This document shows positions 1 to 47,944 of a DNA stretch of 64,000 nt, one piece after another; the stretch's first letter is position 1; the number at the start of each line of letters is the position of its first letter. The DNA is from Protoeuglena noctilucae (Eukaryota; Chlorophyta; Pedinophyceae; Marsupiomonadales; Marsupiomonadaceae). Location: assembly GCA_958009085.1 (NCBI GenBank), contig OY253689.1:413167-477166 (forward strand), written 5' to 3'. Position numbers and translations under genes: made by a program. Below the pieces are notes generated by a model. The model saw only the letters and a program-made list of their open reading frames with translations. It searched no databases and was not told the origin of the DNA.

Positions 1-3000
1 CACGTAAATGCCCACCAGCCGCAGATGCGAGTCGCTCAGGTGCGGGCGGAGGTGCGTCTCTAAGGCGTCTCCCGCGGCGGACCACAGATCCACGATCGCA
101 AACACCGCGGCTTTGCGCACATCGGCCGACGGATGCGACAGTGCGGGGGACAGCCGGGGCGCCAGCCTTGGCGCCCAGCGCAGTGCGTCCGGCTGCGGGA
201 GTCGCGCGCAGACGCGGCCCAAGCACTTGAGCGTCGCTTGCAGCTGAGAAGGGGCCATGTCCCATTGCGGGGGTGGTGGCGCATCGGCCGTGATGGCGCG
301 AGGGGCGGCGTCGTCTGGCAGGTGGGTCAATATCACGTCGAGACAGCGGCCGGGGGGGGCTTGCTTGACTGCGAGGGAAGGGTGGGGGGTGAGCGTGGGT
401 GCGTTGGGGTGCGTGTGAGCGTGAAAGAAAGAATTTTCGCATCTCCATATATATGTATGAGGATATTCGAATCTGTGCATGCATCTCACCTATGGCATCC
501 AGTGCCTCCTCGGCGAGCGCACAGACCTCCCGCGACCCGTCCCTGGCCGCCCGGAGCATGTCCGGCACGGCCGTTTCAAGCACCGACTCCGCCAGAGGCG
601 CCTGCCAGACACAGAGGTCGCGCATGGCCAATGCGGCGTGCTCGCGGATGCCGTCGTCGCGGTGGGTGAGGAGGGGGCGGATGAGGGAGAATACTTGGGG
701 AAAGAAGGCCGACCAGGCGGGGGGAGGGGCCGCGCGGGCCAACTGGGGGGGAGGGGGGGGGGGGGTAGAAGGGGTGGGGGTGGCAGTGGGGGTGAGCGTG
801 AGGGTTGGCAATAGCAATTGGTGGAGATGAGCAGACTGGCGCTGGTGCGTGGCGACTCTCCAGACAACGCCGTGTCAGTCTGTGTGATCGCATCGATTGC
901 ATGTGTCGGTCATCATTATCAACCCCTCACGACCCCTCACCTCCGATGCCAAAAACAGCTGGTGCATGACCAGCAGCGTCCGCGACCCCTCCGCGTCCCC
1001 CAGCGCCGCCACCATGCGACGGAAGTGCCCCTCCACCACATCCGCCGACCCCATGTCCTGTTTGCGCAGTGGCGTGTAGGGCACAGGGCTGTACGGCGTG
1101 CCGCCCGCCCCATCCGCGCCCATCGCAGCGCCCGTGGGGTGTGCACCGGGAGTGTGTAATGCAGATGCAATTGCTGGGCCTGCTCTTGCTGGCATGGCGG
1201 GGGATGGGGAGGGGGAGGGCGATCGCCTCGCTGCCCCCGCCGCCCCCGCATTGCCCATTCCCATCCTCGCTGCTGGGGAGGGCGACGGTGATTTGCCCGC
1301 CTTATTCGCAACCCCCGCACCTCCCACCACCCCCGCACCCCGCACTGTGCCCGTCGTATACTCAAGCGTGCTTTCGCTCGTCTGCCGTTGCGCCGCTCCC
1401 GCCCCCACCCCACCCTTGCCCCCCACCTCTCCCTCCCCCTCCCCATCCCCCACTCCTTTCATCTCCCTCTCTCTGTCAGACTCGTCCCCCTCCCCCTCCC
1501 CCACACGCACCGCATGTGATCGCAGCCCATCCCCCTGCATCTCCACGTCCCCATCGCTCGCCTCCGCATACCCCTGCCACGCGTACGGCCCCTCCCGCAC
1601 CTCCCGCACCGCCCCCGCACCCGCACCCCCCTCGTCCAAAGCTGGCGAAGCGCCCCGCCCACCGCTCCACCCCTCACCCCACGCCACCCCCGCCCCAGCT
1701 CCCACCCCCGCAGCCGCCGTCTGTTGTTGGTATCCCGGCAGCGCGGGCGCGAGGTGGCGGTGGAGGTTGGCCCGCTCATCGGGCGTGGCGTGGTGTGTGG
1801 CGTAGGCGGCGAGGGCCGACGGGTCAACGGCCTCGTGAATGCGGCACAGCAGAGAGGCAGCTGACGATCTAAGGGGGCGGTCGCGATCGGCCAACAACGC
1901 AGCGGCGCGCTGCACCACGGCGCGGAGGAGCGCGGGCGTCAGGCGGGCGTCTGACGCCGACGCCGCCAGAAACTGCGCCAGCCAGTCGAGTGCCGCGATG
2001 CGCGCGGCGGATCCCCGGGACTTGTCGAGGGCCAGCGCCGCGCCGGCGATGAGGAGGTCGGGGGGGAACGCGGCGGCGGCTGCGGCGAGGCAGCGAGCGG
2101 CGGCGGGGGCGTGGGGCTCGCGGTTGGTGGCGATGTGGCGGAGGAGATCTGGGAGCAGGCGCTCTACCTGAGTGGGAGAGAGAGAATGGAAGAATGGTAA
2201 TGACTTGAATGTGTGGAAGTAGATGGGGCGAGAGGGGGGGCGCTTAATTTGAACAGGGAGAAGGGAGTGACGTGAATGACTGGGTGCAGGGTGCATGCGA
2301 TGGTGAGTCGAGAAGCGGAAGCTGGCTCAATACACGAACATATATATCCGAACCATCCTGCTTAACACCCCCCCGCCCCTCTCACGCCTGTTCGCTCACT
2401 TCCCCCCCCCCCCCATACTCACCTGCATGTCCATGCCCACCCCCAGCCTCATCGCCCCCATCATCACCCCTATCACCCCTCAACGCCCCTAATACTAACT
2501 CACTCCCCCCCATCCCTTACCTGCGTGTCCATGCCCACCCCCAGCCTCATTGCCGCCGTGCATGCCTCAATCGCAGCCAGGCTGACCATGCGGTGCGGAT
2601 CCTGCAATGCGTCGATCAACCACGTCCCCACCCGATCCCCACTCATCGCCATCTCAGATGCAGCGCCGGGGTGCGACAGGCTGCGCGCCAGTCTCCCCAA
2701 CAACTCCACACGCTCCTCCCAACGCTTGCCGGGGCCGGGAGCGCGCGACAGCTCCTCTACTACCCCGCGAGGGTGGGGGGGTGGGGCGGGTGATGATGAC
2801 ACAGGTGCGGGTGCGGGTGCGGATACGGGTGTGGCTGCCCATGCAGGCGGGGGTGCGTGGGCGGGTGCGGAGGCGGGAGTGCGTGCGGGAGAGGGGGCGT
2901 CTGCCCAGTTCGCACCCGCGCCCCTTGCGCTGGCTGCTCTCCTCGCCCTCCCCGCCCCCACCCCCGCTGTCGCATCCCCCGCCCCATCCCCCTCTCCGTC

Positions 3001-7379: not shown

Positions 7380-7399
7380 GCGAGGGGCCGCGAATCGCG

Positions 7400-7797: not shown

Positions 7798-9697
7798 TGG
7801 GGGCGGGGAGGGCGCGACGGCTCGCGAGGTGCTGCGTCACCGGGGCGTGGAGCGTGTGATTATGGTGGACATCGACGAGGTGGTGTGCCGCTTCTGCGCA
7901 CAGCACCTCCCCAAGAACACCGCGGCGTTCAAGGACCCCAGGTGGGGTGTTGGTGGGAAGGGGGTGTCGTAATGTTGTAACGTTAAGTGAAGATTGCATG
8001 TGAGCGTGCGGGGGGGGGGGGGGTTGATGCTGAGTGGGGCTTGTCTCTCTGTGCTGTACACGACGTGCTTGTTTACCACCCAAGTAGTGATGCCACATCA
8101 CTACTTGCGCCCCCACATCAACCTCCCCCTCCCATACCGCCCCCCCCCCCCCCCCCCCCACCCAGGCTCACCCTCATCCACAACGACGCCCGTGCCGAGC
8201 TCGAGCGCGTCCCCGACGGCTCCCTTGACGTGGTCATCGGTGACCTGGCGGACCCCGTGTTCGGTGGCCCCTGCTACCAGCTCTACACGAAAGATTTCTA
8301 TGAGAATGTCGTGAGGCGCAAGCTGGCGCCCGGGGGCATCTTCGTCACGCAGTCGGGGCCGTGCGGGGCCGAGTCGTGCACGGAGGTGTTCACGGCCATC
8401 CACAACACGCTCAGGTGAGCTCAGGTAACAGGGCACAGGACTGTTACACCATCACAGGGTGATACCATCGTCAGCATGGGATCATAGAGCGCAGAGGGCG
8501 CATGGCATTGATGTGTTCCTCATAGAGAGCCGGCTGGGACTCTCTGGCAACCTAGTCCCGTGGCATTGAAGCTCCGTTCAACCCCTAGATTACATCACGG
8601 GGGCTTCGGCCGGTAAGCCCCAGTGATGTAATCTAGGGGTTGTCTATTGGAGCTTTACTGCCAACGGTGCTAGGTTGCCACAGTCCTAGCCGTCGCTCTA
8701 CGAGGAAGGCGTCAATGCTTAGCGCCCACTGCGCTCTATGATCCCATGCTTGCTGACGCTGGGATTACCCTCGACCGCTGACGCAGGGCTAATTCTGCCC
8801 CCTTTCCCAACACCACGCCATGCCATGCCATGTTATCTGCCTCTTCCTCACAACCCCCTCCCCCCCTGCACCCATCCCACACCACGTTCCTCACTCTCAC
8901 AACCCCCTCCCACCCCACCCCACACACCCACACCCCCTGCACCCATGCCACACCATGTTCCTCCCTCTCACGCCCCCTCCCAACCCCATCCCCCCACACC
9001 CACCCCCCCCTGCACCCCCGTGCCATGCTTTGTTCTCGTGTGCTTTGTTCTCACAAGCCCCTCCCACCCCCACACCCTCCACCCAACCCCCCCACCCCCT
9101 CCCCTCACATCCCCCAGGCAAGTCTTCCCCCGCGTTCTCACCTACAAGGTCCCGATCCCATCCTTTGTCGACTGCTGGGGATTCAACGTGGCGCTGTCAG
9201 ACCCAGAGGGCACGCCCGCGCTGGCGGCTGAGGAACTGGACCGTCGGATTGAAAAGCGCATCGAGGGGGAGCTGGAGTATTTGGATGGGGCGTACATCCT
9301 GGGGATGCAGGTGAGAGTTGGGGTGGGGGTGGGGGTAGTGAGGATGGGGGTAGTGGGGAAGATGGTGCGAGGTGTACATCCTGGGGATGCAGGCGAGGGG
9401 GGTGGAGGGGGGTGGGGGCAGTGAGGGTGGAGTGATGGGCATGCTCTAAACCCTCACCATCCGCGTCAGCCCCTCTCTCTCATGCACCCTTATCATCCAC
9501 ATCAGTCCCTTCCATCCACGCCTCACATCCACGCCTCCCATCCCCACCCCTCCCAGTGCACCCCTCCCATCCACACCCCTCCCACAATCACGCAGACGCT
9601 CCCCAAGTGCATCCGGCGCCGCATGGCAGAGGAGACGCACGTCTTCACCGAGGACGCGCCCAGGTACCTCAAGTCGGGGGCAGGGCTCAAGGCCTGA
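7798..9697 (+). CDS. ACL5: Thermospermine (spermidine-type) synthase, 5' partial
   Basis: Aminopropyltransferase that moves an aminopropyl group from decarboxylated S-adenosylmethionine to a polyamine. Exons: 7798-7941, 8166-8414, 9118-9310, 9596-9697; phases close and the last ends in TGA. Visible motifs are GGGEGATARE (nucleotide-binding loop), VDIDE, GDLADP (catalytic acid region), GPCYQLYTKDFY and YLDGAYILG; the C-terminus has ETHVFTEDAPRYL. GDLADP and the CYQLYT segment are closer to plant ACL5-type thermospermine synthase than to spermidine synthase, which is the basis for the name. About 95 N-terminal residues of the family are missing, probably in the gap. A 290-base foldback sits in the second intron, and the exon 3 end is copied in the third intron. 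Confidence 0.88.
8469..8758. repeat. Foldback (inverted repeat) element in an intron
   Basis: A near-palindromic 290-base unit. Outer arms: 8469-8494 against 8727-8758, with a 3-base bulge. Inner arms: 8579-8598 against 8623-8642, a perfect 20-base match. The short loop is GC-rich, and other arm pairs match in between (GCAACCTAG with CTAGGTTGC). It resembles a MITE or foldback transposon, or a hairpin RNA precursor. No clear target duplication was found. Confidence 0.85.
9374..9392 (+). repeat. Intronic copy of thermospermine synthase exon 3 end
   Basis: Repeats the last 19 bases of the exon ending at 9310. The copy is followed by GCGAGG, whereas the true exon end has GTGAGA. Confidence 0.8.
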
Positions 9698-13502: not shown

Positions 13503-13540
13503 TACTGCTTGCGCTCAGACGATGATGCCAAAATAGACAC

Positions 13541-14548: not shown

Positions 14549-16070
14549 TCATGCCCCCTTCCTCTCCGTGCGTCGGATCTCCACCCCCGGGTGCGCGGCT
14601 GCATACGCGTCCTCCATCCCCACGTATCGGTCCCGCTGCCTCGCAAACGTCTCCTGTGACAGCATACAGGGACAGCAGGCGCGTGACGAAACGGGGATGT
14701 TGATAACAAGGATAGGCATCTCTCTTTGCGCAGTGTCCCTTGCAAGAACACCCCAGTGCCTCCATTCCCCCTCGCCTGCGTCACCCTGTTCCCACTCCCA
14801 CTCCCCCTCTCTCTCACCTGCGTCACCCTGTCCACCAGCAGCACCCCCTGCAGGTGGTCGTACTCGTGCTGGAAGATGCGCGCCTCCCACCCCCGCACGT
14901 CGAGCACGAAGGGGCGGCCCGTGAGGTCCTGCGCCCGCACCTTGATGCTCGCGTGGCGGGACACGTCGCCCAGGATGAGGCCCTGGGGAGAGACGGAGTG
15001 GAGGGGAATTGAGGGGTGAATGGGGGAACACTGATAGACGCAGCCAAGGCGAGGGGTTGAGTGGGGGAGCACTGAGTGGGGATGGGCAGCGAGTGGAGGG
15101 CTGTTGAGGGGTGAGTGGAGTAATACAGATAGGCGACTGAAAGCGGATCAGGCGTTGGTGGCACAGCCCACCGCACCGTCACCTATGCATCTCTAACTGA
15201 CAGGCACCCCTCCTCGCCCATCTCCATCCGCACCGTCACCTGTGCGTCCTTGAACGACAGGCACCCCTCCTCGCCCATCTCCATCCGCTTGCTCCCCGAC
15301 ACGACCCTCGGGTTCACCAGCACCACCTCGCTGTTGCGCCGCTCCCTCAGACCCGTGGGGTTGAACACCATCAGTCGCACGTTCACGCCCACCTGGGGCG
15401 CGGCCAGGCCCACGCCGTCGTCCATATACATCACCTCGAGCATCTCAGACGCCAGACGCGCCAGCTGCAGGGGGACATGGGTGTGCATGGGTGGGGGACT
15501 GCTGCAGTCCTGGTCCCTATGATAGTGCCATGGGCGTGGATTGGATGTGCTATCCGCATGTGTCACCTTGGCGTCAAACACCCCGATCTTGGCATTCTGC
15601 TGGCGCAGGCGCGGGTCGGGGTACCTCAGGATGCTGTCGAGCGTCAGCGGGCCCTCCCAATCTGTGTGGCACAACACTTGCGGGAAGCGTTGTACCAGGC
15701 CGGCAGGATTGTACGCAGAGAGACCGACCGCCGCTTGCTGTGCGCCTCTCGCCTGGTATCTCCGTCACGGTGGGTGCGTCGTCTTTCTCCTCCTCTTCCT
15801 CCCGCTTGACGGATGCGAGCTCTTTCATCAGGAAGCCCCTGCGCACGGAGCGGCCGCGGGGTCGACGCGGAAGCCAGTGCAACTGGAGCAACGGACGATA
15901 TTTGTAGATCAGACTCACCTGCCAGCCTCGACCGGGCGGCCCCTGCGCTGGGCGCGGCACGCGCGGGCCGCGAACAGCCGCGCGCCCATCCGCAGCGGGC
16001 CGGCGACGTCGCGGCACCGATGGCCGGCGTGCAGCGCACACAGTATTGTCCCTTGCAACGCGTGCGACAT
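14549..16070 (-). CDS. PDF1B: Peptide deformylase, plastid-type
   Basis: Removes the formyl group from the N-terminal Met of nascent organelle proteins. Exons right to left: 15919-16070, 15753-15838, 15567-15661, 15240-15464, 14818-14982, 14549-14653; 275 residues, phases close. All three metal-site motifs are present: GVGLAAPQVG, EEGCLS (Cys ligand) and QHEYDHL (two His ligands). The first 75 residues (MSHALQG..., Arg/Ala-rich) look like a transit peptide, and the mature start YPDPRLR is family-typical. Intron 2 uses a GC donor (CCAG|GCGAGA at 15752) and is only 91 bases; this joint is the least certain. The type 1B assignment is from overall resemblance. Divergent from MLH1. Confidence 0.9.
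14776..14788 (-). repeat. Intronic copy of deformylase exon 5 end
   Basis: Thirteen bases equal to the exon end at 14818-14830, followed by a GC donor form (GCGAGG), 42 bases downstream of the real GT donor. Confidence 0.6.
15183..15230 (-). repeat. Intronic copy of deformylase motif-2 coding segment
   Basis: Forty-eight bases repeat the exon end at 15240-15287 (offset 57). In frame it again encodes MEMGEEGCLS, then runs into a TAG. Confidence 0.85.
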
Positions 16071-19500: not shown

Positions 19501-21696
19501 CTGCCACATTGTTACTTTGCCCCATTGTTACACAGCCATGCTGCCGCACTGCCCACTCACAATCCCCTTGCCTCTCCCCTTCCCCCCCAGCACTGTGCGT
19601 CGCCCCCGCCGTGGCATGACAGCTGGGGGCATGGGATTGGCCACGTTGTTAACAACAACAACAGATGTTATGGGGATAACAGAGGGGGCCACACAGGGGC
19701 GGGGTGATGGCATGGAGGGGGGGCAGATGCAGGGCGGTGGGGTGGGGGGTGGTGCGGATGGCGGTGGGGGCGATGAGAGGGCGGGCGGTGGTGGGGATGC
19801 AAGCGGTGCGGGTGCGGGTGCGGGTGCGGGTGCGGGTGGCAATGCGGGTGCGGGTGCGGCTGCATTGGGTGAGCTGGCAGCCATCCGTCGTTCGGTGCGT
19901 CAGCGGCGGGGGGCGGGGGGGGAATCGACGCAGCTGACGAGTGTCAGAGAGCTGCTGAGGGATGCGGGTGAGGGATGGGTGGGGATGAGGGATGCGGGTG
20001 AGGGGTGGACAGCAATCACCATTGCCACTGCCATCACCGCTACCGTCGCCCCCACAGCCACTCCCTCACCCTCCCACCCTCCCCCCCTCTCACCCTCATC
20101 CTCACCCTCACCCACTCTCAACCCCCTCCCATCCCTTCAACCCCAGAGCACCCCCCCCACCCGGAGCTGTCCGCCGTCTTTGCGCAATGCACGCTGGTGG
20201 GCCTCATTGATCCCGTCGCGGCATTGGCACAGCACGGCACGCGGCTGCTGGTGCTGGACCTGTCGAGCCTCACCCGGGACCTTTTCTTCCAGCTGGCGCT
20301 GCGGGGATTCGAACGCCACCCGCGCGTGAGGCTGGGGGAGGGGGTGGGCGTGGACGAGGCGGTCGAGATGGCGCTGGTGAGAGTTTGTGAATTGTGGATG
20401 AGGAGTAACGTGGAATGGGATGCAGTGTGGGTGTGAGGGATGGGTGGAGATGGGAGGGGTGATGGTGCTGGTGAGAGTGGGTGTGGACGGGGGTGGTCGA
20501 GATGGCGCTGGTGAGAGGAGTGGATGGGGTGTGAGGGGTGTTGGTGAGGTGTTGCGTGCAGTGTTGCGAACGTGTTGCTCATTGCACTTCACGCGCCAGC
20601 ACTCACCCACTCTCACTCACTCACTCCCACTCACCCACACCCACACCCACACCCAAACTCACTCACCCACACCCACCCAACCCGTCCCCCTTCCCCCCCA
20701 GTCCCTCCAGCACTCTCAGGGCTCCTGGTCCCCCCCCTCCCCCACCGCCACCCCCGCCGCCCTCGCCGCCCTCGCCCGGCAGCTGCTCACCCGTAAGCGC
20801 GACCTGCTGGGATCGTGCTTCGGCATAGACATCACCGATTGCGGCAGGATCGTCTCCCTGCCGTTGCTGCTCGATCGATACCACCCGGATTTGGACAGGC
20901 TGCCGGGGCTGGTGTTGGATCTGGCGACGAGGGTGGAGTGGGGGGAGAAGGCGTGTTTTCGGTGAGGGTTATGTGGGGGGTGGGGGTGTTTCTGGGTGTT
21001 GTTGATGTGAGTGGGTAAGAGTGGTGGAGTGGTGGAGTGGTGGAGTGGGGGGAGGAGAAGGCGTGTTTCCGGTGAGGGGGGGGTGGGTGGGGTGTTGTGT
21101 GGGGTGCATTTAAATGATGGAGTAGTGTGTTGGGGATGTTAAGGAATGCTGTTGATATGATTGGTTGACGTGGTTGCGAGGGTGGAGTGGTAAGATGGTG
21201 GGCATCAATCAAGCACGCATCGCCCAGCATCGTGCTGTGCTGTCCGTGTCAGCAGCACGATCGCGGAGGCGCTGGCGGACTTCTACCGCCTGCAGCCGCC
21301 GATGGGGGAGGAGGGGGGTGGGGGAGAGGGGGGTGATGATAAGGGTCAACATGATAAGGGACATGATGAGGGACAGCAAGGCCAGGGAGTGAATGAGGGA
21401 CACGAGAAGGGGCGTGAGGGCGTGGCGTTGCCTGGTTGGCGGAGGGACGGGCGGCGGGAGTGGGCGGTGCGGCACGTGGTGATGCCGGGTGAGTGGATGA
21501 GATGGGCAGTGAGGGAGTGGATGGTTCACATATGTAGCAGCAGTACATATGTGATATCATTCATCATTCCAACACCTCTCTGCCCCTTGCAGCCCTCCGC
21601 TCTCTGTTCAAGCCCCCCGCACATCGTGGCAGGGACGGCACTGTGGTGGAGGTGACGAGGCTGGAGAAGCTGTACCAGATATTCGAGAGGTGCTGA
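16580..21696 (+). CDS. MLH1: MLH1 DNA mismatch repair protein
   Basis: MutL homologue that couples mismatch recognition to strand removal and resolves meiotic crossovers. Exons: 16580-16666, 16857-17086, 17251-17384, 17513-17666, 17869-18056, 18225-18421, 18646-18907, 19214-19331, 19591-19967, 20147-20376, 20702-20961, 21253-21488, 21593-21696; 858 residues. The GHKL ATPase region is intact: NRIAAGEVIQRPANAMKEM, DNGHGI, TSKL, GFRGEALASISFVAHL. FLNGRPVDC and DVNVHPTKQEV follow. The C-terminal domain is complete and ends in FERC, the conserved terminal cysteine. Insertions relative to the family are a Gly-rich linker with a GGTGCG repeat (19804-19865) and a His/Asp/Gln-rich loop (21316-21420). 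Introns 2 and 4 use GC donors. Longer than the human protein (756) because of the linker. Confidence 0.96.
19982..20004 (+). repeat. Intronic copy of MLH1 exon 9 end
   Basis: GGATGAGGGATGCGGGTGAG-type segment repeating the exon end and donor at 19958-19971. Confidence 0.6.
20461..20510 (+). repeat. Two intronic copies of MLH1 exon 10 end
   Basis: The exon end at 20346-20376 with its GTGAGAG donor recurs at 20479-20510 (GTCGAGATGGCGCTG kept, donor GTGAGAG). A shorter copy lies at 20461-20478. Confidence 0.8.
21040..21071 (+). repeat. Intronic copy of MLH1 exon 11 end
   Basis: Repeats 20933-20961 and the GTGAGG donor with a 3-base insertion. It lies in a short GTGGAGTG tandem array. Confidence 0.8.
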
Positions 21697-28925: not shown

Positions 28926-31900
28926 TCACATGGGCAGCAGGTCCTCCCCCAGCGTCCAATCCTCCTCCTCCCCCTTCCCCCGCCCCCTCCGCTCCCCGTC
29001 CCCCTCCTCCTGCACCTTCACCCCCACGTTTACTGACACGGGCGCCAGGGGCTCCTCTCCCCTCGCCTTGCCCCTCTTGCCCGGCCCCGACTGCGCCTGC
29101 TCAGCTGCGTCTGCCTGCGCCTGGGCACGCTGGGCCTTGGCCAGCTTGTCTGCGATTGACGGGGGGGTGTGTGCGAGGGTAAGATGGCGAGCGAGTGGGG
29201 TGGGGGAGAGGTGGGGCTTGGCGATGTCGGGATGTCTGCAGTTAGTACCCTTAATAACAGCACTTCCACGCTTGTCATTGCGTATTGAGCCTTATGTTAT
29301 CCAACAGCCCCACACACACACCCAATCCTCTCTCACCCGCGTACTTTGCCTCGTCGTTGGTGAACCCCAATTCTCTCCCCAGATCCACCAGATACCGCAA
29401 ACATTCCACATTATCCGCGTGTCTGGCGTGGATGGCCTGGTAACGGCGATAGGCGCCGGGGAGGTCGCCGGAGCGACTGGGGGGGGGTATAGGGGGGGAG
29501 GGGTGTTGGTAGATGTGATATGGGAGAGGGAGAGATACAATTATCGTCAATTACTGGCACGAGCGTACATATGTCATCTACTCTCGCATTCCCATCCACT
29601 CATACCCCCACCCCACACACCCCACCCCTCTCTCACCGAATGCACGAGGCCGCCATCAGCTCCCACTCACTCACACACACCACCACACCCACTCCACACC
29701 CACATCATTCTCTCACCGGATGCACGACGCGGCCATGAGTTATCACTCACACCCACTGTCGCATCTCTCACCGAATGCACGAGGCCGCCATCAGCTCCCA
29801 CTTGGCCTCCGCCGGCTGCAGCTGCGCAAGGATTTCGAAGAACGGCAGCGCGTCCGCGTAGGCGTTGTTCTTGACGTAGTAGACCCCCAGCCACACCGCC
29901 ACGTCCATCGACGCGGGGAACACGCGGTAGGCGTCCTGAATGGGGGGAGAGGGATGGGTGATGATGGTGGGGTTACATGATCAAATGACTGTGGCAACAC
30001 ACTCATGGCACGTGGTGGGCGTCCTGGGAAAACACAGCGATGGGATTATGATTATAATTGTGTTGGTGTTGGGTTTATAAAGGGTGTATTGTCGTGCGGT
30101 AACACTCGTCGTTGTGCCATACACACGCACAGTGCTCTCCCCTTCCCCTCTCATTGGCATATGCACGTCCACACACCCCCACATCCACCCACTCACCAGG
30201 AACATCCTCAGTGCCTTCCCCTCGTCCTGCTGCGCTGCGTGGATGCCCCCCAGCTTGACCATCAGAGAGGGATCGGCACCCAGGAACATCTGGGCAGACG
30301 CCTGCTCCAGCCACTGCGGATGAGAGATGGGAGTAAGGTGTATATTGAGAATGGTTATAGCAAGTGATGGTCGCCCAGAGGGATCGGCACCCAGGAACAA
30401 GGGATGGGTCTCAAGTGACACGGTGGGTTGAGGGGGTGTAGAGAGTAGAGTGGGACCGCGAGAGCGTGGCTGACAGTGAGGGGGGTGTACACAGAGTAGT
30501 GGGGTGAGACAGAGCGAACCCCAACACTGCACCTGCAACCCACACACGCACCCCCACCCCTCCCTCACAACACCCCCACACATGCACCCCCCCCCCACAC
30601 CCCACCCCACACCCCACCCCCCTTGCCTTGACGCACGACCGCACCCCCTGCCTCCTCCTCTCCCCTTCGAACTGCGTCAGCTCATAGCATAAAGCGATCT
30701 GCACGTGCACGTCCGGCGCGTCCGGCATCAGCAGGGCGAGCTTCTTGAAGCGGCCCATGGCCTCGCGGACGCGGTCGCTGCGCCACTTGTGTTCAAGTGA
30801 TGTCCAGTCGATGGCCGCGGGGTCCAGCTGGGGAGGGAGAGAGGGGGGTAAGATTGAGGGGTGGTAACAAGTGAGGCAAAGGCAATGGTAGCTGTATAGG
30901 TCTGTCACCCCACCCACCCCACCCCTTGTGCACCGCCCCATCTCACATCCATCGCATCCCCACCCACCATGCACATCTCCCTCTCTCCCATTATCCCTCA
31001 CCTCCCCCCCGCTGGACAGGTCCCTCAGCGCCAGTTTCCTGGCCACCAGCCCCGCGTTGTAGAGGGCATCGGCACAGTCGGCCTCCACCTCCAGCGCACG
31101 CTCGTACTGACTGAGAGTGGGGAGAGAAGGGGATGTGTTGATGTCATTGTCTGCCACCTCCAGCGCACGCTCGTACTGGCTGGGGGGGGGGGGGGGGAGA
31201 GTGATGAAGGAAATGTGTTGCTATGCTTCTCATCCATGCTTACCGCAGCGCCTCCTCCAGCTCCCTCATTCACCACACACAACAACAAACACAGCCACCA
31301 TTTATCACCCCATCTCTCCCCTCACCGCAGTGCCTCCTTCAGCTCCCCTCACACACTACACACAACACCTCCCCTCATACACACAACACATCACCCATCC
31401 CTACCCCCTCCCTCACCGCAGCGCCTCCTCCAGCTCCCCCCCCGCGGCCATCACGTTCCCCCTCGCCACCAGCGCCTGGGCGTTGTAGGTGTCAGCCGCC
31501 AGTGCCAGATCGGCGTTTCGCCTGGCAGCGTCCAAATCGCCCTCCATGAAAGCAATGGAAGACAAGGAGCCAGCCGCACGGGCGCGGAGGTCCTGGGGGG
31601 GAGAGCGGGATGGGGGGTGTTCAGTGAATGGGAGGTTGTGATGCGAAGATGTGACACTTTCTGAATGCAATTGAAGACAAAGAGCCGGCAGCGCGGGCGC
31701 GGAGGTCCTGGGGGGGGGAGAGGGGGGTAAGGGCGGTGATGTGGGTGAGTGAGTGAGTGAGTGAGTGAGTGAGTGAGTGAGTGAGTGAGTGAGTGAGTGA
31801 GTGAGTGAGTGAGTGAGTGAGTGAGTGAGTGAGTGAGTGAGTGAGTGAGTGAGTGAGTGAGTGAGTGAGTGAGTGAGTGAGTGAGTGAGTGAGTGAGTGA

Positions 31901-32990
31901 GTGAGTGAGTGAGTGAGTGAGTGGGTAAGTGAGTGAGTGAGTGAGTGGGTAAGTGAGTGAGGCTGGAGGTGACTTGTGGTGGGGATGCGTGTTACACTCC
32001 CGCCCATGCACACCCATCCACATCACCACCCATCACTCGCCTTGTCCTTCCTCTCGAAGCTCTTGAGTATCTCCACCGCCCCCGCAAAGTCCCTCCCCCC
32101 CAGCAGCGCCTCCGCCTTGCACAGCTCCACCTCCCCCGCAAGCCGCGCCATCCCCATCTCCCGCAGCTGCCCCGCCGCCCACTCGAACCCCGCAGCGCGC
32201 GTGGGGCCGAGCGCGGGCGCCAGCACCCTCGCCGCACGCAGCACGGTGGCAGAGACCGCCATGCGCCTGCGCACCAACTCTTCACGCAACGAGTCGACGG
32301 CGTCTGGGTCAAAGGCCGTCTCCTCGCTCTCCTCGTCCAATGCAACGTCCACGGGGTCCAGGCCCTGGGGGGGAGGGATAAGGGGGTGGGTTGATGTGGG
32401 TGGGGGTGGGGGTGACATGAGTGGTGAAATTGGGGTGACATGCGACCCGCGAATGTGTATGTTTGTACATGTGCATATGTGCACATGTGCATGCATGTGT
32501 GTGTATAAGCGTGTCTGTGCACCATGCATCTATCACTCTCCCCCCTCATCCCCACTCCCCCCATCTCACCCTGAGCAGCATCTGGAAGGCCGCCTTCATG
32601 CGCTCCTTGTCCCCCGCCGCGTACGCGCACACCACCAGGTTGAACCCCGCTACGTGACTGGGGGCGTGCTCCATGGCCTGCTCGAACTGCTGCAGAGCGT
32701 CGCCCATGTGACCCGCACGCACGAACGCCAGCGCGATGTTTCGCTGCACCTGCCCCCGCAGCTCCTTGGAGGTGTTGGGGAGCTGGTCGACGGCCATGCG
32801 CCACATCTGGGGTGGGAGAGGGGGAGAGGGGTGCGGGTGTGTGTGTGTGTGTGTGTGTTGGGGAGCAAGGGGATAGTGGTTGTACATGATCAAGAGAAGT
32901 AGAGACGCTATGGCGACCTTAATTTGACACAATGCATTCGTCACACATCACCCATATCCTCTCGCATTGCGAAGTGCACCTATCACACAT

Positions 32991-33046
<56 letters not shown>

Positions 33047-34388
33047 ATGCACCCCATCTCCTCGCCTTGATGGCCTTGGCGTACTCCCGCTGCTCAAAGA
33101 GCGCCCATCACACATCATACACCATGCATCCCCATCTCGCCTTGATGGCCTTCACATGATCGGAACATGCATTATGCACTTAGCTCCCCCCCCTTTCCCA
33201 TCTCGCCTTGATGGCCTTGGCATACTCCTGCTGCTCGAAGTGCACGTTCCCCATGTTGATGCGCACGCGGGCGGGGTGCTGGAAGGCCTTGCCCTCCCTT
33301 AGCATCTGCGTGTACACCGACAGCGCCTCCCCCAGCAGGCCGTTGCGGTGCAGGCAGTCACCCAAGTGGAACTGCACCGCGAATGTCAGGTCCGTGTTCT
33401 GCATCGCCTCCGCTAGGCCCTTCTCCTGGGGGGGTAATGGGGTGGGGTGAGGTGGGGGCGACTTGCGATGTGAGCGGGGCAAGGGTATGAGGGGGGAGGG
33501 GGGTGCGGTGGGTGCGTTGCGGTTAATCAGTCTCCACACAGCACCTAGGAACTGTAAACTAACCACCCTGTCCAAGCACTGCACACACCCATCCCCCCTC
33601 ACCTCTAAGAACCGCACCAGCGCCCTCTCCCTCTTCACCGCCTCCTTCGCCTTGTCGAGCGCCCCAGCCAGATTGCCCTGCCCCGCCAATGCAGCGCTCT
33701 CCTCGAGTGCCTCGTTTGCCGCCAGCTCCATGTCACGCGCACGGGCCTCGGCGCTCCTCTCGATGCGGGGGGCGCCCACGCCGCCGCGAGCGCCTGGGGG
33801 TTGGGGGGGTGGGGGGGGTGGGTAGGGGTGCGGCGGTGGTGGGGGCGGTGGTGCGAGGGCTGGACTAGCCACTGTTGCTTGGCTGAGCCGGTCAACGCGA
33901 GAAAAGGCTAGGCCAATCCAAGTGTGCACCCTGGTGATGTGCCCACCTACCCCCTCCATCCCTCACCGAGTGCCATGGGGTCGAACGCCGCCCTGCCGCC
34001 CGGTGCCGCGAGTGCCCCCGTGGCGGGGGGGCGGCTGGTGTACCCAGCGCCGCGGTTGGACGTCATCGGACGGCCGCCCCCGAGACCGCCTGACCCCGTC
34101 ACGTCCGCATGCCTGGCCATGGCGCTGGGCGGAGGGATGAAGCCGCCGCCCGGCTGCACGCGGGGGGCGCCCGCGGCGGTGCCCAGAGGCGGGCCGCGCT
34201 TGCCGGCGAACGCCGTGGCGCCGGGGTCCGGGGAGGGCGTCGTGGCGTCGTACCCCGCGTAGAGGTCCTCGTCCCTCTGCGAAAACGAAACGAAACAAGC
34301 GGGAGTTTGCAGCGCATTTATTTCTGCAACGAACGGCGACGCGCGCGGAGGATGCGACACTGCGGGGACTCGCCGTGGTGCCTGCCAT
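28926..34388 (-). CDS. IFT88: IFT88 intraflagellar transport protein (IFT-B)
   Basis: TPR-repeat core subunit of the IFT-B train, needed to build cilia. Exons right to left: 34374-34388, 33967-34276, 33603-33793, 33207-33425, 32570-32806, 32041-32364, 31417-31592, 31002-31110, 30627-30827, 30197-30313, 29772-29935, 29337-29476, 28926-29149; 808 residues, close to the family norm. Strong family matches: DEDLYAGYD at the N-terminus, NLAGALDKAKEAVKRERALV, RINMGNVHFEQQEYAKAIK, AGFNLVVCAYAAGDKERMK, VWLGVYYVKNNAYADALPFFE, AYRRYQAIHARHADNVECLR, and an acidic C-terminus EEEDWTLGEDLLPM. Four introns use GC donors (34373, 33206, 32040, 30626). The 15-base first exon (MAGTT) rests on phase and a GC donor only. 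Convergent with the GNAT gene. Confidence 0.93.
29637..29745 (-). repeat. Two intronic copies of an IFT88 exon end
   Basis: The exon end and donor at 29767-29802 recur at 29632-29668 (nearly exact) and 29712-29745 (diverged). Three equally good donors result. Confidence 0.85.
31153..31180 (-). repeat. Copy of an IFT88 exon start in the upstream intron
   Basis: Repeats the coding bases 31081-31109 (exon 31002-31110) with its own AG acceptor. Confidence 0.8.
31244..31347 (-). repeat. Two intronic copies of the IFT88 exon end at 31417
   Basis: CGCAGCGCCTCCTCCAGCTC at the exon end (31417-31436) recurs at 31244-31263 with a GTAAGC donor and, with two changes, at 31326-31345 with a GTGAGG donor. 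Confidence 0.85.
31669..31708 (-). repeat. Copy of the IFT88 exon start at 31592
   Basis: Forty bases repeat the exon start at 31554-31592 with acceptor, about 115 bases upstream in the gene. Confidence 0.8.
31746..31965. repeat. (GTGA)n microsatellite in IFT88 intron
   Basis: About 54 near-perfect copies of a tetranucleotide, with two GTGGGTAA interruptions near the right end. The plus strand reads as back-to-back GTGAGT, but the gene is on the minus strand. Confidence 0.97.
32994..33045. repeat. (CA)n microsatellite in IFT88 intron
   Basis: About 26 CA units. Confidence 0.95.
33065..33152 (-). repeat. Two intronic copies of the IFT88 exon end at 33207
   Basis: CGCCTTGATGGCCTTGGC plus following bases at 33204-33242 recur at 33062-33100 and, shorter, at 33138-33152. 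Each keeps the GC donor form (AAG|GCGAG). Confidence 0.85.
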
Positions 34389-38600: not shown

Positions 38601-41600
38601 CACGCTTTGTCTCATGTCAGTGAGGGTCTAGTCTCGTTCACCTCGCCTCGCCATGTACCAACGCACCATCAACTCAGACCTTGTCGCATCGCACCTCGTC
38701 TCATCCCAACCAACTGACCATACCATCTCACCAGTCTCACGTCCCCTTATGTAACAACCCAGAAAGACTCTCTTGGCCGATTAACCGACACGCTGGAGTG
38801 GGTGGAGTGGACGGAGCAGTCCTTCAAGGCACGCGGCCTCGACACGCCCCTCTCCGGCCAGCGATTCAAATGCATGATCAGCCGCAAGTGGCTCGACCAG
38901 GACCCGGGGGCGTGTGGCATCAGCTACGAGCAGCCCAGGCGAGAGGGTATGGGGTGCACACATGCGACATAACAGACACCGCAGTCAACCGCAGCCCCCA
39001 CAGCTGCCCATACTTCCTAGCGCCATCTCAACCGTCCCTGCATCCACTGCCTCTGCCAAACCCCCGCCTCTCTACCCGTCACCCTGCCATGACCATTCAA
39101 ATCTCCCGTACCCCCCCAGGTGCGGCAACATCAGCGGCCAGGTGGAGCCGTCCCTGTGGTCGGCGTCCCATCGCGGTGACTACATGGTCGAGGAGTGCGC
39201 CCACTACAACCAGTTCCCCGACTGCGGCATTATCCCCCACGAGTCCGCATACTGGGACAAGGCGAGACATGCGGGGATGGATGCATTCTCGCAGATGGCA
39301 TGCTTGCCGCTGATAGTACCTATACGCATGGCCGGCAATCTCACTTATGGACTCTCGCTGATGGCTTTGCGTGCATGTGCGGTTGCCTGCGATCAATGCT
39401 CATGGTCGACCATGCTTTGGTTGGCTCTACTGCTGTTCATTGTACAGTAGTTGAGAGTGCAACGACGGACCCCCCCCCCCCTACCCCACCCACCCAGGTC
39501 AAGCCCGCCAGCGCCATGTCCGGTTGGCACAGGCACGTCCGCTCCATCGATTCGATCCTCTACTCCGCCGTGGCCATGTACGTGCTGGGGGGGGTCAGCC
39601 TGATGTGCGCGTACCTGGTGCATAGGTACTGGGTCGAGAGAGAAGTGGGGTTCGAGGTGAGGGGGGAATGGGTCGAGATGGTTGGGTTACGTATTCCCGC
39701 TCCTATTCCCACCTAGAGCAGCATTGCAGCAGTGGGTGGTTCATGCCCTCATCCGCCCCTCACCCACCCCGCCCCACTGTCCCACTGTGTGAATGCTTAT
39801 TCACAGCATGAGCATGATCGGTGCGTCACCATCTCCCTTCAACTCCGCCCCCCCCCCCCCCCAGCACACGCTGGTGAGCGGCCCCCGTGCCCGTCACGCC
39901 AACGTGGTGCCCAAGCTGCAGGAGGCGAAGCACGAGGAGGTGTTTGATATTAAAGAGGGGTACCTGGTGAGTGATTGCAATGCATGGAGTGGATGGCAAT
40001 GTGCATGAGTAGGGATGATGTGTGTTTGACATCAGAGAGGGGTACCTGGTCAGTGGACGTGATGGGTGGGGAAAGGGGATAGAAAGAGTGATGTGTGCAG
40101 AGACTCGGTTGGAAGATCGTTGTCCCCACCGTCACCCCCTCTCCCTCTCAACCCCCCTCACTCCCTCCCTCCTCCCCCCCTTAGTCGTACCTGGATGGCT
40201 GGGAGGAGTCGGTGCAGATAGTGAATCTGACGAGCATGGACGTGGACGTGCGCATGATCGACAACGACGTGGGGGACGCGGATGACGACGAGAGGGAAGT
40301 CAGCTGCGGGGTCGTGGGGGCGGGGGGGACCATTGATGCCAAGCTAGCACAGGTGAGGGGGGGATGTCATGCATTGTGGGTGTTAAGCAAGCACAGGTGA
40401 GGGGGGGGGGGGATGTAATGCACTATGGATGCCAAGCTAGCGCAGGTGGGGGGGGGGGGGCTATGGGAGGTGAATGGCAAGTTACTGCAGGTGAAAGAGA
40501 CAGTAACGACCATACAGGGTAGGGACGACCATGCATGCGCAATCCCTCCTCTTCTCTCTTCCCTACCCTCGCATCCCCGGATCCATCCAACCCCTCCCAT
40601 GCCACCCTCTTTCCTCTCCCACCACTGCCCCACCACCCGTTTCCACCACCCTCCCCACCACTTTCCCAACCACCTCCCCCCCCCCCCCCCCAGGGCGTCT
40701 GGATCCGCGCCCGCACCGTGGACGGCACCCGCGCGACGCTCTTCTTAACCGAGGCATTCGCGTACACCTCCACCTACGCGCGCATACTGGGTAGAGACCG
40801 GCTGCCCCTCCCCTGCGAGCCGCGCACGGCCTGGATGTGCCCGCTTGTGCACTACGATACCTACCGAGTCATCGTGTCCATCCACCAGCTGCAGCCGGGG
40901 CAGAGGTGACGAGTTAGATGAATAAGTCGAATGGGGATTAGTAAGTGGAATGGGGATTGTAGTTGTTTATGTTCATCGTATGCGCCTCTTCTGCCCCCCC
41001 CATCTCCTTGCAGCCCCGCCCCTCACCCACCACACTCATTGTCAACATCGCCGCTGCACCCCCCGCCACTCCCATTACCCTCTTCTCCCCACCATAACAC
41101 ATAACACCTTCCCCTTTCCCCCCGCAGCCTCACCCCCGCGAACGTGGACACGGTGGGTCAGATCCACGCCATGCGCAAGGACAAGAGAGTGCGTGCGCTG
41201 ATCGCTAAGGCACGCGCGGTGGGGGGCATGGCACTCGCGGGCAAGGCAGCCAAGGACTACAGGCACAAGGTGGAGGCGGCGAAGGTTACCGCGACCAAGG
41301 CGCCCAGCAGCAAGGGTGAGGGGAGGGGGGGCGGTGGGACAGGGGAGGTGGGTGATGTTCAGTGACGGTGGATGCAGCGACGGTGGGATGACCGGCGATG
41401 CCCGATGCGCCCTCTCATGTCGCTGTTGCTCTCTTCTCCTTTTCTCTCGTCTCCAACACACCTCCCCCTTCCTTCTGAACCCTATGCACCTCCTCCACCC
41501 TCCCCTTCCCTCTCATCTCCCCCACCCTCGTCCCCCCACCCTCCCCTTCCTCTCATATCCCCCACTCTCCCCCTCCCCTCATATCCCCCCACTCCTCCTC

Positions 41601-44600
41601 CTCCACCCCTTCTCTCATCTCCCCCACACGCAGCCCCCCGCACCGTGTCCCTCTCCACCACCGCCGCCACCCACGGACCCCCCTTGACGGACCACCGCGA
41701 CCGCCCCCGCCCCTCCCGCAAGCCGAGGGGAGCATCCGAGTCATCCAAAGGGCAGTGGGCGCTCTCCCCCGCGCTCACGTGGGTGTGGGTGGAGCCGGGC
41801 ATGCCGGGTTACGATCGCGTGACTGCCCTGGATTCCCGGGGCCGCCCCGCCCCCGATTCGCGCCCCGCCGATGCGGCGCTGATGGGCGCGGGGGACGGGC
41901 AGGGATTCGACGCCCTCGGCAACTGGGCGAGGGTGGAGGGGGAGTGGGCGTGGGTGGGGCGAGAAGACCCCAGGTGGGGGGCGGAGGGCGATGTATATAC
42001 ATTTGATATTGGATGTTAAGTAGTACTGTCATAAATAGTCCCACTCACACGGTCGACAACCTGTAAACACTCTCAGTCTCCTTCGCCATGAACACACCAT
42101 GCGCACCCTCAGTCCCATTCACTCATCGACATGCACATGACGCGCCAGATGTACGCCCATGCACCTCTCTCTCTCTCTCTCCCGCAGGTGGAGTTCGCTG
42201 TTCCCGCCCATGCCAGCCGCGATGGAGGCCACGGACACTGATTTTGACGAGGAGGGTGACGCGGGGGCGGAGGAGGGGGCGGTGATGGATGAGGACGTGG
42301 CGGTGGGGAACGTGCCGGTGAGTGGGGTGGGGGTAGGGCAATCGATGGGTGCATTGCGGACATGGATAAGACTGTGGATGAGGAGATGAGCAGAGGGGTT
42401 ATATATGAGAGGCGAGCAGAGGGGCGGCAGGGTGCTGGGTGATGTGATGTGATGAGAAGGGGTGGGCTGGGTGTGGATGACCGTGGTGTGACTATGGGAG
42501 ACGTCAGGTAGAAGACAGAGGGTGGTTGCGTGCATGTGTGGCTGTCGCCTCATGCGATTGGTTGTGTTCTCTCTCTCCCCCCCAGCACAAGGCGGGGTCG
42601 TGGGTGATGCGTGCGGGTGACTGGGTGTGGAAGGAGGTGGGGGAGGAGTGGCCGGACGCACAGGAGCCCAGGCACGCCGTGTACACGCAGGCAAGCACAT
42701 AAGCATATGGGGGATCGTGATGGGAGATGGATGAGCTGTTGGTGTACCATGGGACTGCCACTGCCGCGACTGCCACGATTGGCTGCCTCTGCCACCCTTG
42801 CCACCATACCTGCTACCGTCCCCACTGCCACCCCACTGCTAACCCCCCTGCCCCCCCCACCACCACCCCCACAGCCACCCCCACTGCCACCACCCCAATG
42901 CCACCACCCCCACCCCCCCTGCCCCCCTGTCCCATCTCCACACCACCCCCCTCCCCCCCCACTCCCCCAGTCGGACATGCGTCGCCCAGAGGTGCTGGAC
43001 GTCAGCCCCGTGGCCTCCCCCGACGCTGAGCCGGGCCGCCCCGTGTCTCTGCTGGTCGCCAATGCCGAGGGGGTGGTGGTGCGGCTGTCGGCCGTCACGC
43101 CCGACGGATCCATCGCCGAGCTGCAGACGCTGGTGAGGGGGGGGAAGGGGGGGCGCGAGTGCGTTTGATCTGGGATGTTCGATCTATCTAAGATGGGGAT
43201 GCGCTATCAAACACATTAGAAAGACGCAGTCGCTATGTGTGTGCGTATGTGTGGCTCTCGCTCAGTGCACCCATGGCATCGCCTTTGCCTCTGCCTCTCT
43301 AACAAACACACTGAGCTGTGGACCGATGCACGCACTCGTCACCACTAGTGTCAATTAGTGTCAACTATGCTGCCCTCTAACCCTTTTCATACGCAGAAGC
43401 CCAAGCGTCGTGCACTCGTTACCACTAGTAGTACTGACTATGCTCCCCCCCCTCATTGTCATGCGCAGAAGCCCAAGCGTCGCTGGCGAGGCGAGGTCCC
43501 TGCGGGCACGTGGCTGGTGGCGGACAACCTCTCCGATGACCACGACCCCCTGTTCTTCGAGGAGACACTCGTGCCCGTGGCGGCGGGGCTCAGGGGGAGG
43601 GTGAGGGGGGGGTATGGGGGGGTGGGGGTGTCGCTTGTTGCACAGCGAAGGGCGTGGGGGGGTAGAGGGGTGCAGGGGTGTCGCTCGTTGTTCAGCAGAC
43701 GGTGTCGCTTGTTGCTTTGCAGATGACGTTGCTCGTTGCATAGCGAAGGGCGTTGCATAGCAGGGGTGTCGTTCGTCGCATGGCGGGGAGTATGACAGTA
43801 TCACTGTCATAAGCGACACTGTTTACTTAGTAAACAGTATCGCTCATGACATCCATCGGGCAGCCAACATCGTCCCCCTCACTATCCACCCCACCCCCGC
43901 AGAAGGACCACCCGTGGGGCGTGAGTCGCCGCACCAGCTGGATGGTGCCCTTTGACACGCACAGGGGGTACGACATCCGACTGGAGATGAGACTCGTGTC
44001 GGGTGAGGGGGAGAAGGGGTGGTGATTGCAACGGTGTGGGAGGGGGAAGGGGGGGGATGTGCTTGCAACGCGCGAGCGGGAGCAGGTGCGACTGCGCGTG
44101 AGCGGGAGCGGCAGAGAGGACCGTGTTACGTCGTTCCAGCGCACTGTGGCCACTTCCTCCATCGCTGCTGATACTGACATCTAAACCCCTGCTGATATTG
44201 ACATCCCCCCCCCCCACCCACGCAGCCATCGACGGCCGCCTGCTCCCCCTCTCCCTCCCCCACGCCCCCCTCCACGCCGGCCCCGAGGTCGCCCACTTCT
44301 CCAACGTCAACTCGTCCGCCCAGGGAGAGGGGACGGCCACGGTGCTCATCCGCAACGCGCAGAGGTTCGAGGTGGCGGTGCAGGTGTACGACGCGGAGGG
44401 GCGACCCCACACGCACGCCACGCTGCGGGCGGGGGAGCGGGTGTCGGCCACGCTGCCCAGGGGGGCGTGGATACGGTGAGGGGATGAGCAGCATCGCGTG
44501 TCAATGTGTCGTGACGGTCACGAGAATCGCTCGTCTCCCATCGCATCGCAACAGCCGCATGCTCCATGTTGCATGTTGTCACCAGCCATGTGCATGTCCA

Positions 44601-46584: not shown

Positions 46585-47944
46585 ATGAGCAAGAAGAAGG
46601 GGCTATCGCTGGAGGTGCTGGATCGGCACGCTGCTGCAATGGCCGCTCGCACCTCGCGCGGTCGATGTCCGCCCTCCCGGCCCAGCCAAGCAATTCATTG
46701 CCGCGCATTGGATCGCAGGAGAAGCGAGACAAGATCCTAGAGGTGTTCCACGAGTCGAAGGAGGTCTTCATCCTCAAGGTGCGCGAGGGTCGGGTCCTCA
46801 CGCTGCGCGCGGCGTGTGGCTGGCCGCGCCTCCTGCGGCCCAGACCCGGAGCGCTCCGCCGTGTCCTCTGCGCAGGAGGTCGAGAAGAAGGCGGCGGCGA
46901 AGGGCGTCGTGCTCCAGAGCGTGAAGGACGTCCTCCAGACCCTCGTGGATGACGACCTGGTTCACCAAGAGAAGGCACGACCCCGGGCCGCGTGGGCAGC
47001 GGTGCGGGACCGGCCGAGACTTGTCACAGGACTGTGTCTTTGTCTCTCCGCAGATCGGCACCACCAACTTCTTCTGGAGTTTCCCCAGCGAGGCGGGCGT
47101 GAAGCTACAGCAGGAGCTGGGGCGACTGCAGGCGCGAGGGGAGGAGCTGCGGGCGCAGGCGGAGCGGGCAAGAGAGAGCATACGCGCTGAGGTGCGAGCG
47201 GGGCAGTGCGGGGGTCCCTAGCACGGTCCCTGCTGGTCTGGTAGCAGGCTGTTGGGCCCAGCGTGACCGTACCATAACGGTTCACACATTCCATCATGCG
47301 TGCCGTGCCTGGCTGTTGTCGCAGGGACAGGGGAAGGAGGACTCGGAGGAGCGGAGGAGACTGGTACAGGTGTGGTGCAGCCACGGCTGCCAGCTAGATG
47401 CCGCACCCATGCGTGCGTTGACAAGCCCGCGATCCCCACAGTGCCGTGCCCAATTTCGACACCAACACCCTTTCTCCCGCCTTCATCGCAGGACCTGGAG
47501 ACCCTCCGCGCCGAGCACGCCTCCCTGCGCGCGCAGCTGCAGGCGTTGGCGGAGAGTGACCCCGAGGCCGTGGATGCGATGCGTGAGGCGACGCGGGTGG
47601 CTAGGGACGCGGCCAATCGGTGGACCGACAACATATGGTGCCTGGCCAGCTGGGTGAGGGGTCGGTGGGTCATGAAGTGCGTGGTTAATGGATTGATTGG
47701 TTGCCTGGCCAGCTGGGTGAGGGGGCGGGTCATGAATTGCATGGTTAGTGGAATGAGTGGTTGCATGAGTGGTTGCTTAGCTGCGTTGAGGGGCAGTTAG
47801 GGTACAGGTATCGCGGAGAGAGTCACACTCTGCCTTTGCTGTGTTATCCCGCAGTGCAAGCGCAAGTTCCAGGGCCGGGAGAAGGAGCTGGAGAAGTTCT
47901 TCGAGCAGAATGGCATCACGGATGCCCTCGATTACGTGGAATGA
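46585..47944 (+). CDS. MND1: MND1 meiotic recombination protein
   Basis: Partner of HOP2; the pair stimulates DMC1/RAD51 strand invasion in meiosis. Exons: 46585-46614, 46719-46778, 46876-46974, 47054-47191, 47325-47369, 47492-47653, 47855-47944; 207 residues, normal family length. N-terminal MSKKKGLSLEEKR with winged-helix residues (SVKDVLQTLVDDDLV, GTTNFFWSFPSEAG), a coiled coil (about residues 85-165), then the conserved ANRWTDNIWCLASW and a C-terminal helix ending DALDYVE. Intron 3 uses GC (GAGAAG|GCACGA at 46975). A copy of the exon 6 end lies in the next intron. Its presence argues that the organism is, or recently was, sexual. Confidence 0.96.
47701..47716 (+). repeat. Intronic copy of MND1 exon 6 end
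   Basis: TGCCTGGCCAGCTGG|GTGAGG at 47638-47659 recurs here with the same donor and about 30 bases of similar intron after it. Confidence 0.8.

Follow-up and report, generated by a model that had tools for sequence, protein, structure and literature searches.

Exon ends and their splice sites recur as local, direct copies in introns of the green alga Protoeuglena noctilucae

Can exon ends be copied, together with their splice sites, into the introns beside them, and if so by what process? The question arises from a 64,000-nt stretch of the genome of the green alga Protoeuglena noctilucae (hereafter the window), located at the right-hand end of contig C22 (413167-477166). A first-pass annotation reported near-copies of exon termini in adjacent introns of unrelated genes. 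Every coordinate pair that it named was found again (12/12); they mark 10 junctions, nine donors and one acceptor. After realignment to the gene models, the copy halts exactly at the last base of the exon in eight of the nine donor junctions. Directly after these eight copies comes GTGAG, GCGAG or GTAAG in seven cases and GTCAG in one. At junction 15240, the best piece (15199-15222) ends 16 nt short of the exon end. The acceptor copy 43397-43410 begins precisely at the first base of the exon, after GCAG.

The analysis covers 344 kb on 12 contigs, that is the window and 280 kb besides, or 1.3% of this one genome of 26.3 Mb and 26 contigs. A gene finder trained unsupervised on all 344 kb predicted 645 introns with a median of 165 nt and exons with a median of 163 nt. 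In this self-trained model, donors are 78% GT and 21% GC, and acceptors are C-rich and mostly CAG-final. Removal of stretches with N or at block ends left 644 usable introns out of 647 stretches; removal of exons shorter than 25 nt left 626 exon ends and 618 exon starts. The terminal 40 nt of each exon were aligned with its own adjacent intron, with a threshold score of 15.

Exon ends recurred in their own intron in 40 of 626 cases, with an expectation of 0.65 in swapped introns of similar length and 0.65 in shuffled introns. Exon starts recurred in 24 of 618 cases (expected: 0.3 in swapped and 0.05 in shuffled introns). The window alone holds 12/112 exon ends and 2/113 exon starts at this score; dinucleotide shuffling of the introns leaves 0.00 (mean of 20). 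Control pieces 50-90 nt inside the exon gave 1/542 (expected 0.1) and 1/542 (expected 0.55). Exon-end copying is confirmed as real and beyond chance; the self-alignment proposed in the first-pass annotation yields a strong excess over shuffled introns. The copies are direct: at a score of at least 15, 34/589 ends and 22/589 starts had a direct copy and 0/589 and 0/589 an inverted one. At score 14, inverted copies numbered 1 and 1, with 0.8 and 0.2 expected. They are also local, as the intron on the other side of the exon matched in only 2/499 and 1/499 cases. In orientation and locality, copies at score 15 or more behave as short tandem duplications do.

Duplication as a whole is concentrated in introns. 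From 187 loci, 56 of low complexity were set aside, and the 131 counted fall into introns (111 in 115.2 kb), exons (14 in 154.3 kb) and intergenic DNA (6 in 74.2 kb; 71 expected, P 1.4e-17). The densities are 0.96 loci per kb in introns and 0.08 per kb in intergenic DNA, the intergenic stretches having been checked for missed genes through open frames only. Short repeats with a period up to 12 make up 7.1% of intron, 1.8% of exon and 1.0% of intergenic bases. This distribution bears on a simple explanation: tandem duplication by fill-in and end joining of staggered breaks may strike the genome at random, with exonic events purged and no special chemistry in introns. Exon interiors are almost empty, as expected under selection. 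Tandem loci from lenient alignment fall on donor, interior and acceptor at 29 : 25 : 16, near a random 0.59 : 1 : 0.59. Microhomology is not visible, and clean units (identity at least 0.8) exceed two periods in 1/20 cases, by 1 nt. Yet intergenic DNA should be hit too, and it carries about 12-fold fewer loci per kb. The deficit is still about 7-fold within the five duplication-rich blocks (96 loci in 77.7 kb of introns, 6 in 32.1 kb of intergenic DNA), which were picked after the shares had been seen. Donor-straddling copies are, moreover, about twice as frequent as acceptor-straddling ones. We regard random duplication as rather unlikely.

A second explanation places splicing itself at the origin. 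Junctions as such might be copied, for instance by RNA- or R-loop-associated repair at nascent transcripts. If true, the region covered by the spliceosome would itself be copied into intron DNA, and introns would grow by re-copying their own junctions. The intron concentration agrees with this. After removal of matches beside exons shorter than 20 nt and of repeated places, the 72 matches were reduced to 61; in strict alignment, 49 of these cross a junction. The remaining 7 exon-only and 5 intron-internal copies argue against a junction-bound process. A scan of 40-nt windows against the 160 nt alongside gave an excess per 100 of about 3-7 in introns, up to 9.9 astride donors and 4-5 astride acceptors. 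In exon interiors, values were mostly 0.0-0.8, with a single 2.4 (n=163) and 1.2-1.6 within 60 nt of a junction. The annotation's view of splice sites as the target holds insofar as donor-straddling windows have the highest excess. Duplication also affects the interiors of introns, which makes splice sites one target among others and likewise argues against copying of junctions as such. Gene ends carry such copies in 2/74 stop-codon regions and 1/73 start regions, too few to separate them from splice sites. Genes with the highest GC content at third codon positions (GC3), merely a proxy of expression, have fewer affected introns (9.3% vs 16-21%), which also argues against copying linked to splicing. 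This explanation appears clearly unlikely.

The process recurs in unrelated genes, as annotated: duplications outside low-complexity sequence were found in introns on 10 of the 12 contigs, with none on C5 and C10. About 17% of introns have a recognisable local duplication (112/644, low-complexity loci excluded). The share per block ranges from 0% (C5, C10) to 42% (C8), and clustering by gene is strong (chi-square 148 vs 72 ± 12 shuffled, 0/1000). Regional recombination was considered as a cause and dropped, the duplication share and GC3 being only weakly correlated (rho -0.20, P 0.07). The extreme block, C8:100001-120000 (L017-L018), has a low GC content, and according to the gene model hardly any of it is intergenic. 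Its long predicted gene (C8:106894-120000) may encode a multi-repeat protein of the PLAT/LH2 type.

The composition of the introns offers a clue. From the first to the last fifth of an intron, G falls from 46 to 15% and C rises from 14 to 47%, nearly a mirror image. Introns with and without duplications have this gradient; duplications as its source were dropped, as duplication-free introns have it as well. Beyond what length predicts, introns with a G/T-rich 5' end carry duplications more often (coefficient 0.50, interval 0.20-0.83; 560 introns). As a separate observation, about one in five donors is GC in the self-trained model (138/644), and GC donors are rarer in duplication-bearing introns (18/148 vs 120/496, P 0.001).

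The copies come in two forms. Among the 49 junction-crossing copies, the gap between original and copy is at most 5 nt in 13, 6-14 nt in 7 and at least 15 nt in 29. The term tandem in the first-pass annotation therefore describes the 13 abutting copies, and nearly so the 7 with small gaps, but not the 29 that are spaced in strict alignment. As a group the copies do not lie head to tail. Random duplication can claim the 13/49 head-to-tail cases, the 20/49 with a gap below 15 nt and, under lenient alignment, 36/49 near-abutting copies. Lenient alignment closes the gap of 16 of the 29 strictly spaced copies, which are thus ambiguous between spaced and tandem; 13 are spaced by both scorings. At an identity of at least 0.90 there are 12 copies, of which 11 are spaced by strict scoring and 8 by both. 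A C8 copy is identical in 44/44 positions with 83 nt between, and an IFT88 copy in 39/39 with 96 nt between, both spaced under either scoring; a copy at C22+17717 (38/38 identical) has 36 nt between, shrinking to 18 with lenient scoring. In the 29 spaced pairs, no counterpart of the intervening DNA was detectable next to the copy (Fisher P 0.30, median 0.49; dinucleotide shuffles). Spaced copies at 90-100% identity, with intervening DNA that lacks a counterpart, are not tandem units and are not expected from random duplication. For the abutting copies, an origin as short tandem duplications from break fill-in and end joining is possible.

Another reading, in which every copy began as a tandem duplication and its intron part has decayed, was given up. 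It rested on lenient alignments, and strict alignments and shuffles do not support it on aggregate. Residual similarity reached P ≤0.05 in 6/38 cases in comparison with other introns, but in 1/29 in comparison with shuffles of the same stretch. Pairs of nicks, top-strand in G-rich and bottom-strand in C-rich tracts, were also discarded, as 38 clean tandem units lack the predicted G-to-C trend in their end composition. Two introns, C8 12738 and C8 13267, have both donor- and acceptor-side copies, which raised the idea of nested double splicing; by our estimate, such pairing is about as frequent as chance would give.

Our favoured explanation, which we regard as an even bet, is that DNA synthesis switches templates locally, with G-rich and C-rich intron tracts promoting the switches and selection filtering the outcome. 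Serial replication slippage or microhomology-mediated template switching moves the strand back and forth and produces spaced copies in direct orientation, with short matches at their borders. To our knowledge, it has been described mainly for human rearrangements and not as an intron-wide habit. In the alga, short stretches of DNA in and around introns would be copied locally and in direct orientation during synthesis or repair. The growing strand may slip back by about 40-150 nt and copy the passed stretch again, which would yield a head-to-tail duplication. Alternatively, it may slip back and then forward, so that the copy lies at a distance from the original. The abutting form would probably stem from end-joining duplication. 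In spaced donor cases, the back-switch would land on a G-rich, intron-like patch of the exon; the copy would usually end within the G-rich first part of the intron and thereby include the splice junction. The tracts would be G-rich on the donor side and perhaps C-rich on the acceptor side. The G-rich 5' half and C-rich 3' half of an intron would offer matching tracts and would thereby account for introns being struck far more than intergenic DNA. Selection would retain events with the outermost splice sites still in use and remove those that alter the protein. Two sources of the donor bias are conceivable: the G-rich tract, and tolerance, in that the first donor stays where it is when a donor is duplicated.

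The ends of the copies speak to this proposal. Similarity stops 3 to 20 nt past the donor in 14/20 spaced donor copies, which would also suit copying of spliceosome-covered junctions. These inner ends lie mostly in the G-rich intron start; since introns are G-rich there in general, inner-end composition is no independent test of template switching. On the exon side, the outer boundaries of spaced donor copies have a G-rich, intron-like composition (mean rank 0.25, n=20, Kolmogorov-Smirnov P 0.0006). The rank is 0.24 (n=9) for copies spaced by both scorings, 0.26 (n=11) for the remaining spaced copies and 0.49 (n=10) for abutting copies. A simulation of alignment creep with 260 spaced copies averaged 0.51, and the P for a 20-copy mean ≤0.251 was printed as 0.0000. 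Outer ends that track G-rich patches argue against copying of junctions as such. The boundary test addresses composition, not exact matching tracts, and by composition the outer-end tracts of template switching are present in spaced donor copies only.

Several points count against template switching. No copying event was seen, and we infer its polarity. Abutting copies lack the preference for a G-rich boundary, so two mechanisms may be mixed. Some of the 16 spaced copies closed by lenient alignment may be decayed tandem units, against which the shuffle test argues on aggregate only. On the acceptor side the boundary tests are weak (spaced: 0.38, n=9, combined P 0.087; abutting: n=10, P 0.11). 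With stratification by length, a single stratum of the four has a G/T difference at P<0.05, and that stratum holds 4 duplicated introns. Selection in intergenic DNA against duplications could add to the intron concentration. Young tandem copies are scarce (6/83 at ≥90% identity), which may mean that duplication has slowed down or comes in episodes.

After their formation the copies decay. In the divergence set (47 of the 72 matches, after further crossing conditions), the exon part differs by 13.9% on the donor and 9.5% on the acceptor side, the intron part by 19.4% and 15.2%. Mismatches between copy and exon at codon positions 1 to 3 are 9.4, 10.6 and 17.3%. This fits an intronic copy free of constraint and a constrained exon copy, and under template switching such decay would follow each event. 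The copies leave decoy splice sites behind, as the first-pass annotation had stated. In counts restricted to aligned junctions, decoy donors are GT in 27 and GC in 3 of 30, and 18/30 score at least as high as the real donor; AG is kept in 17/19 decoy acceptors, and 5/19 score at least as high as the real acceptor. This conservation and strength would be expected of alternative splice sites or small alternative exons that are used and under selection. However, splicing at the decoy is in frame and free of stops in only 7/30 donors and 7/19 acceptors, so that as a class the decoys do not offer in-frame alternative products. Among the junctions of the divergence set, GT is kept in 24/29 and AG in 15/18, about the retention of 0.81 that a one-sided decay of 10% per site predicts by our arithmetic. 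No copy is included in any aligned solved homologue. Used alternative sites are quite improbable as an explanation; the outermost sites are probably the spliced ones.

Does the process make introns or lengthen them? The annotation had left both open, and its interpretation is partly supported. Duplication-bearing introns have a median of 245 nt, compared with 140 nt without duplication (148 of 644 introns, low-complexity loci included). The process lengthens introns, and nothing in the data indicates their creation: the copied unit mostly already holds a donor and intron sequence, and the copy distance equals the intron length in one weak case only. Intron gain by duplication, as modelled in PMC3443670, deserves mention, since head-to-tail duplications touching exons exist here and the mechanism is described there for other organisms. 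The model predicts that copy distance equals intron length, which the bulk of the copies contradicts. It loosely fits 2/72 matches, both at C8+129 (period 256-259, intron 256, 66% identity); another near-fit, C8-19314 (period 120, intron 110), adjoins a doubtful 9-nt exon. Intron gain is very improbable as a source of the copies.

An artefact of gene models or assembly was weighed as well. The home-made gene finder did make errors. In IFT88 it called an intronic copy an exon (33066-33149), adding 11 residues that are absent from the solved 8bd7, and in a presequence-protease-like metalloprotease gene on C4 it added small exons of 2 and 14 residues relative to homologues. Such errors conceal copies and do not create them. 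Solved homologues cross copy-bearing junctions without an insertion: 8bd7 at residue 721 of IFT88, 4y66 without a gap at residue 206 of MND1, and homologues of the C4 gene at residues 121, 182, 255 and 718. At these places the upstream donor (or downstream acceptor) yields the conserved protein. The deformylase junction (159) is partly supported; the relative P0001 matches it without an insertion, whereas four residues are missing in five relatives (P0002, P0003, P0007, P0014, P0025) and in the solved 3cpm. The best deformylase relatives that are named are mostly green algae. Pfam and solved structures between them back the models of IFT88, Mlh1, Mnd1, deformylase, spermine synthase, DnaJ plus ferredoxin, CLASP, SepSecS and the C4 gene. 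The Mlh1_C match (571-857) spans the copy-bearing MLH1 junction at residue 659. The CLASP_N domain lies in the N-terminal part of the CLASP gene and stops short of the copy-bearing junction, and the Abhydrolase_1 match of the alpha/beta-hydrolase gene is slightly under the cut-off. A divergence of 10-30% between copies is hard to obtain from assembly error, and an artefact is highly improbable.

The copies in the window are compiled in Table 1.

Table 1. Copies of exon termini in introns of the window (positions in nt of the window)
Position	Strand	Gene	Copied segment	Decoy	Intron or real site	Remarks
2423..2459	-	CLASP	last 37 nt of exon	GTGAG	intron 2168-2520; donor 2520/2521	
9371..9392	+	(thermo)spermine synthase	last 22 nt of exon	GCGAG	intron 9311-9595	Spermine_synth domain
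14776..14789	-	peptide deformylase	14 nt, end of next exon	GCGAG	intron 14654-14817	
15171..15288	-	peptide deformylase	57-bp head-to-tail duplication across donor		donor 15239/15240	90% identity; splicing at decoy would read into TAG
20477..20510	+	MLH1	about last 33 nt of exon	GTGAG	intron 20377-20701	
21039..21071	+	MLH1	about last 30 nt of next exon	GTGAG	intron 20962-21255	new relative to first pass
24431..24533	-	alpha/beta-hydrolase	three partial exon-end copies		intron 23882-24538	each ends 9-21 nt before exon end in gene-model alignment; abutting 84-bp duplication across donor in strict alignment
29637..29667	-	IFT88	perfect 31-nt exon-end copy (39 nt with donor)		intron 29477-29771	96 nt of other sequence between original and copy; 8bd7 crosses the junction without insertion
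29717..29747	-	IFT88	second copy of exon end at 29637..29667	GTGAG		77% identical
30385..30399	-	IFT88	exon only (exon bases +25 to +40)		intron 30314-30626	no splice site; 23 identical nt in strict alignment
31244..31265	-	IFT88	last 22 nt of exon	GTAAG	intron 31180-31416	
31326..31348	-	IFT88	second copy of exon end at 31244..31265	GTGAG		
31668..31707	-	IFT88	acceptor side, first 40 nt of exon		intron 31593-32040	CAG before copy
33066..33102	-	IFT88	last 37 nt of exon	GCGAG	donor 33206/33207	
33141..33152	-	IFT88	12-nt second copy of exon end at 33066..33102	GCGAG		
40022..40048	+	large membrane protein	last 27 nt of exon	GTCAG	intron 39967-40184	
40422..40445	+	large membrane protein	exon-end copy		intron 40353-40693	new; in 49-bp tandem array 40335-40460
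43397..43410	+		acceptor side, 14 nt of exon start		intron 43133-43468	after GCAG; unit about 80 bp
47639..47764	+	MND1	60-63-bp head-to-tail duplication across donor	GTGAG after 47716	donor 47653/47654	exon-end copy at 47702-47716
48560..48592	-	SepSecS	exon-end copy	GTGAG	intron 48432-48661	new; SepSecS domain

An IFT88 intron also contains a 56-copy GTGA array (31736-31961), GTGA being a donor-like word. Elsewhere in the window, a gene with DnaJ and ferredoxin-type domains lies at 52135-53726 and a TTAGGG telomere repeat at 63770-64000. Among the contig ends listed, TTAGGG was also found at least at both ends of C1, both ends of C2 and the left end of C3. The window and L013 contain 200 N each. 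A protein search with one arbitrary stop-to-stop frame gave no match.

How do these copies compare with known systems? Single duplications across an exon boundary have been published. Three intron-gain papers treat duplications that create introns (PMC3443670, PMC2891723, PMC4974935). In the potato RdRp gene, a tandem duplication spans an intron-exon boundary and carries splice signals, as here, but it is a single case on the acceptor side that made a new intron (PMC4974935). The alga has dozens of cases, with the donor side commoner, many copies spaced and an existing intron that grows. In Drosophila, novel intron positions arose via tandem duplication or sliding; local duplication interacts with splice sites there too, but coding sequence with proto-splice sites is duplicated and introns are created (PMC2891723). 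Small tandem duplications arise from fill-in by Pol alpha-primase followed by end joining and use less microhomology than those of Pol theta (PMC8355091). Being direct, local and short, they fit the abutting class; as described there, they do not predict spaced copies, intron concentration or G-rich outer ends. Introners alter intron content at a genome scale as well, but they are dispersed families (PMC9860276), whereas the copies here are local. The one stretch compared with all 26.3 Mb, window 29700-29900 with 72 nt of intron in it, matched only itself and its local copy. The available portions of PMC12574857 and PMC8469720 hold nothing bearing on the exon-end copying pattern. Copying of exon ends with splice sites as a genome-wide habit was not found among the literature matches listed, which is weak evidence of absence, with subscription journals thinly covered.

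The finding touches two open questions: how introns grow, and how spliceosomes disregard equally good splice sites nearby. Although 18/30 decoy donors score at least as high as the real one, the conserved protein comes from the upstream donor wherever a solved homologue was aligned at a donor case. The genome thereby offers a natural graded series of decoy sites for tests of splice-site choice, and a system in which intron-concentrated local duplication can be measured.

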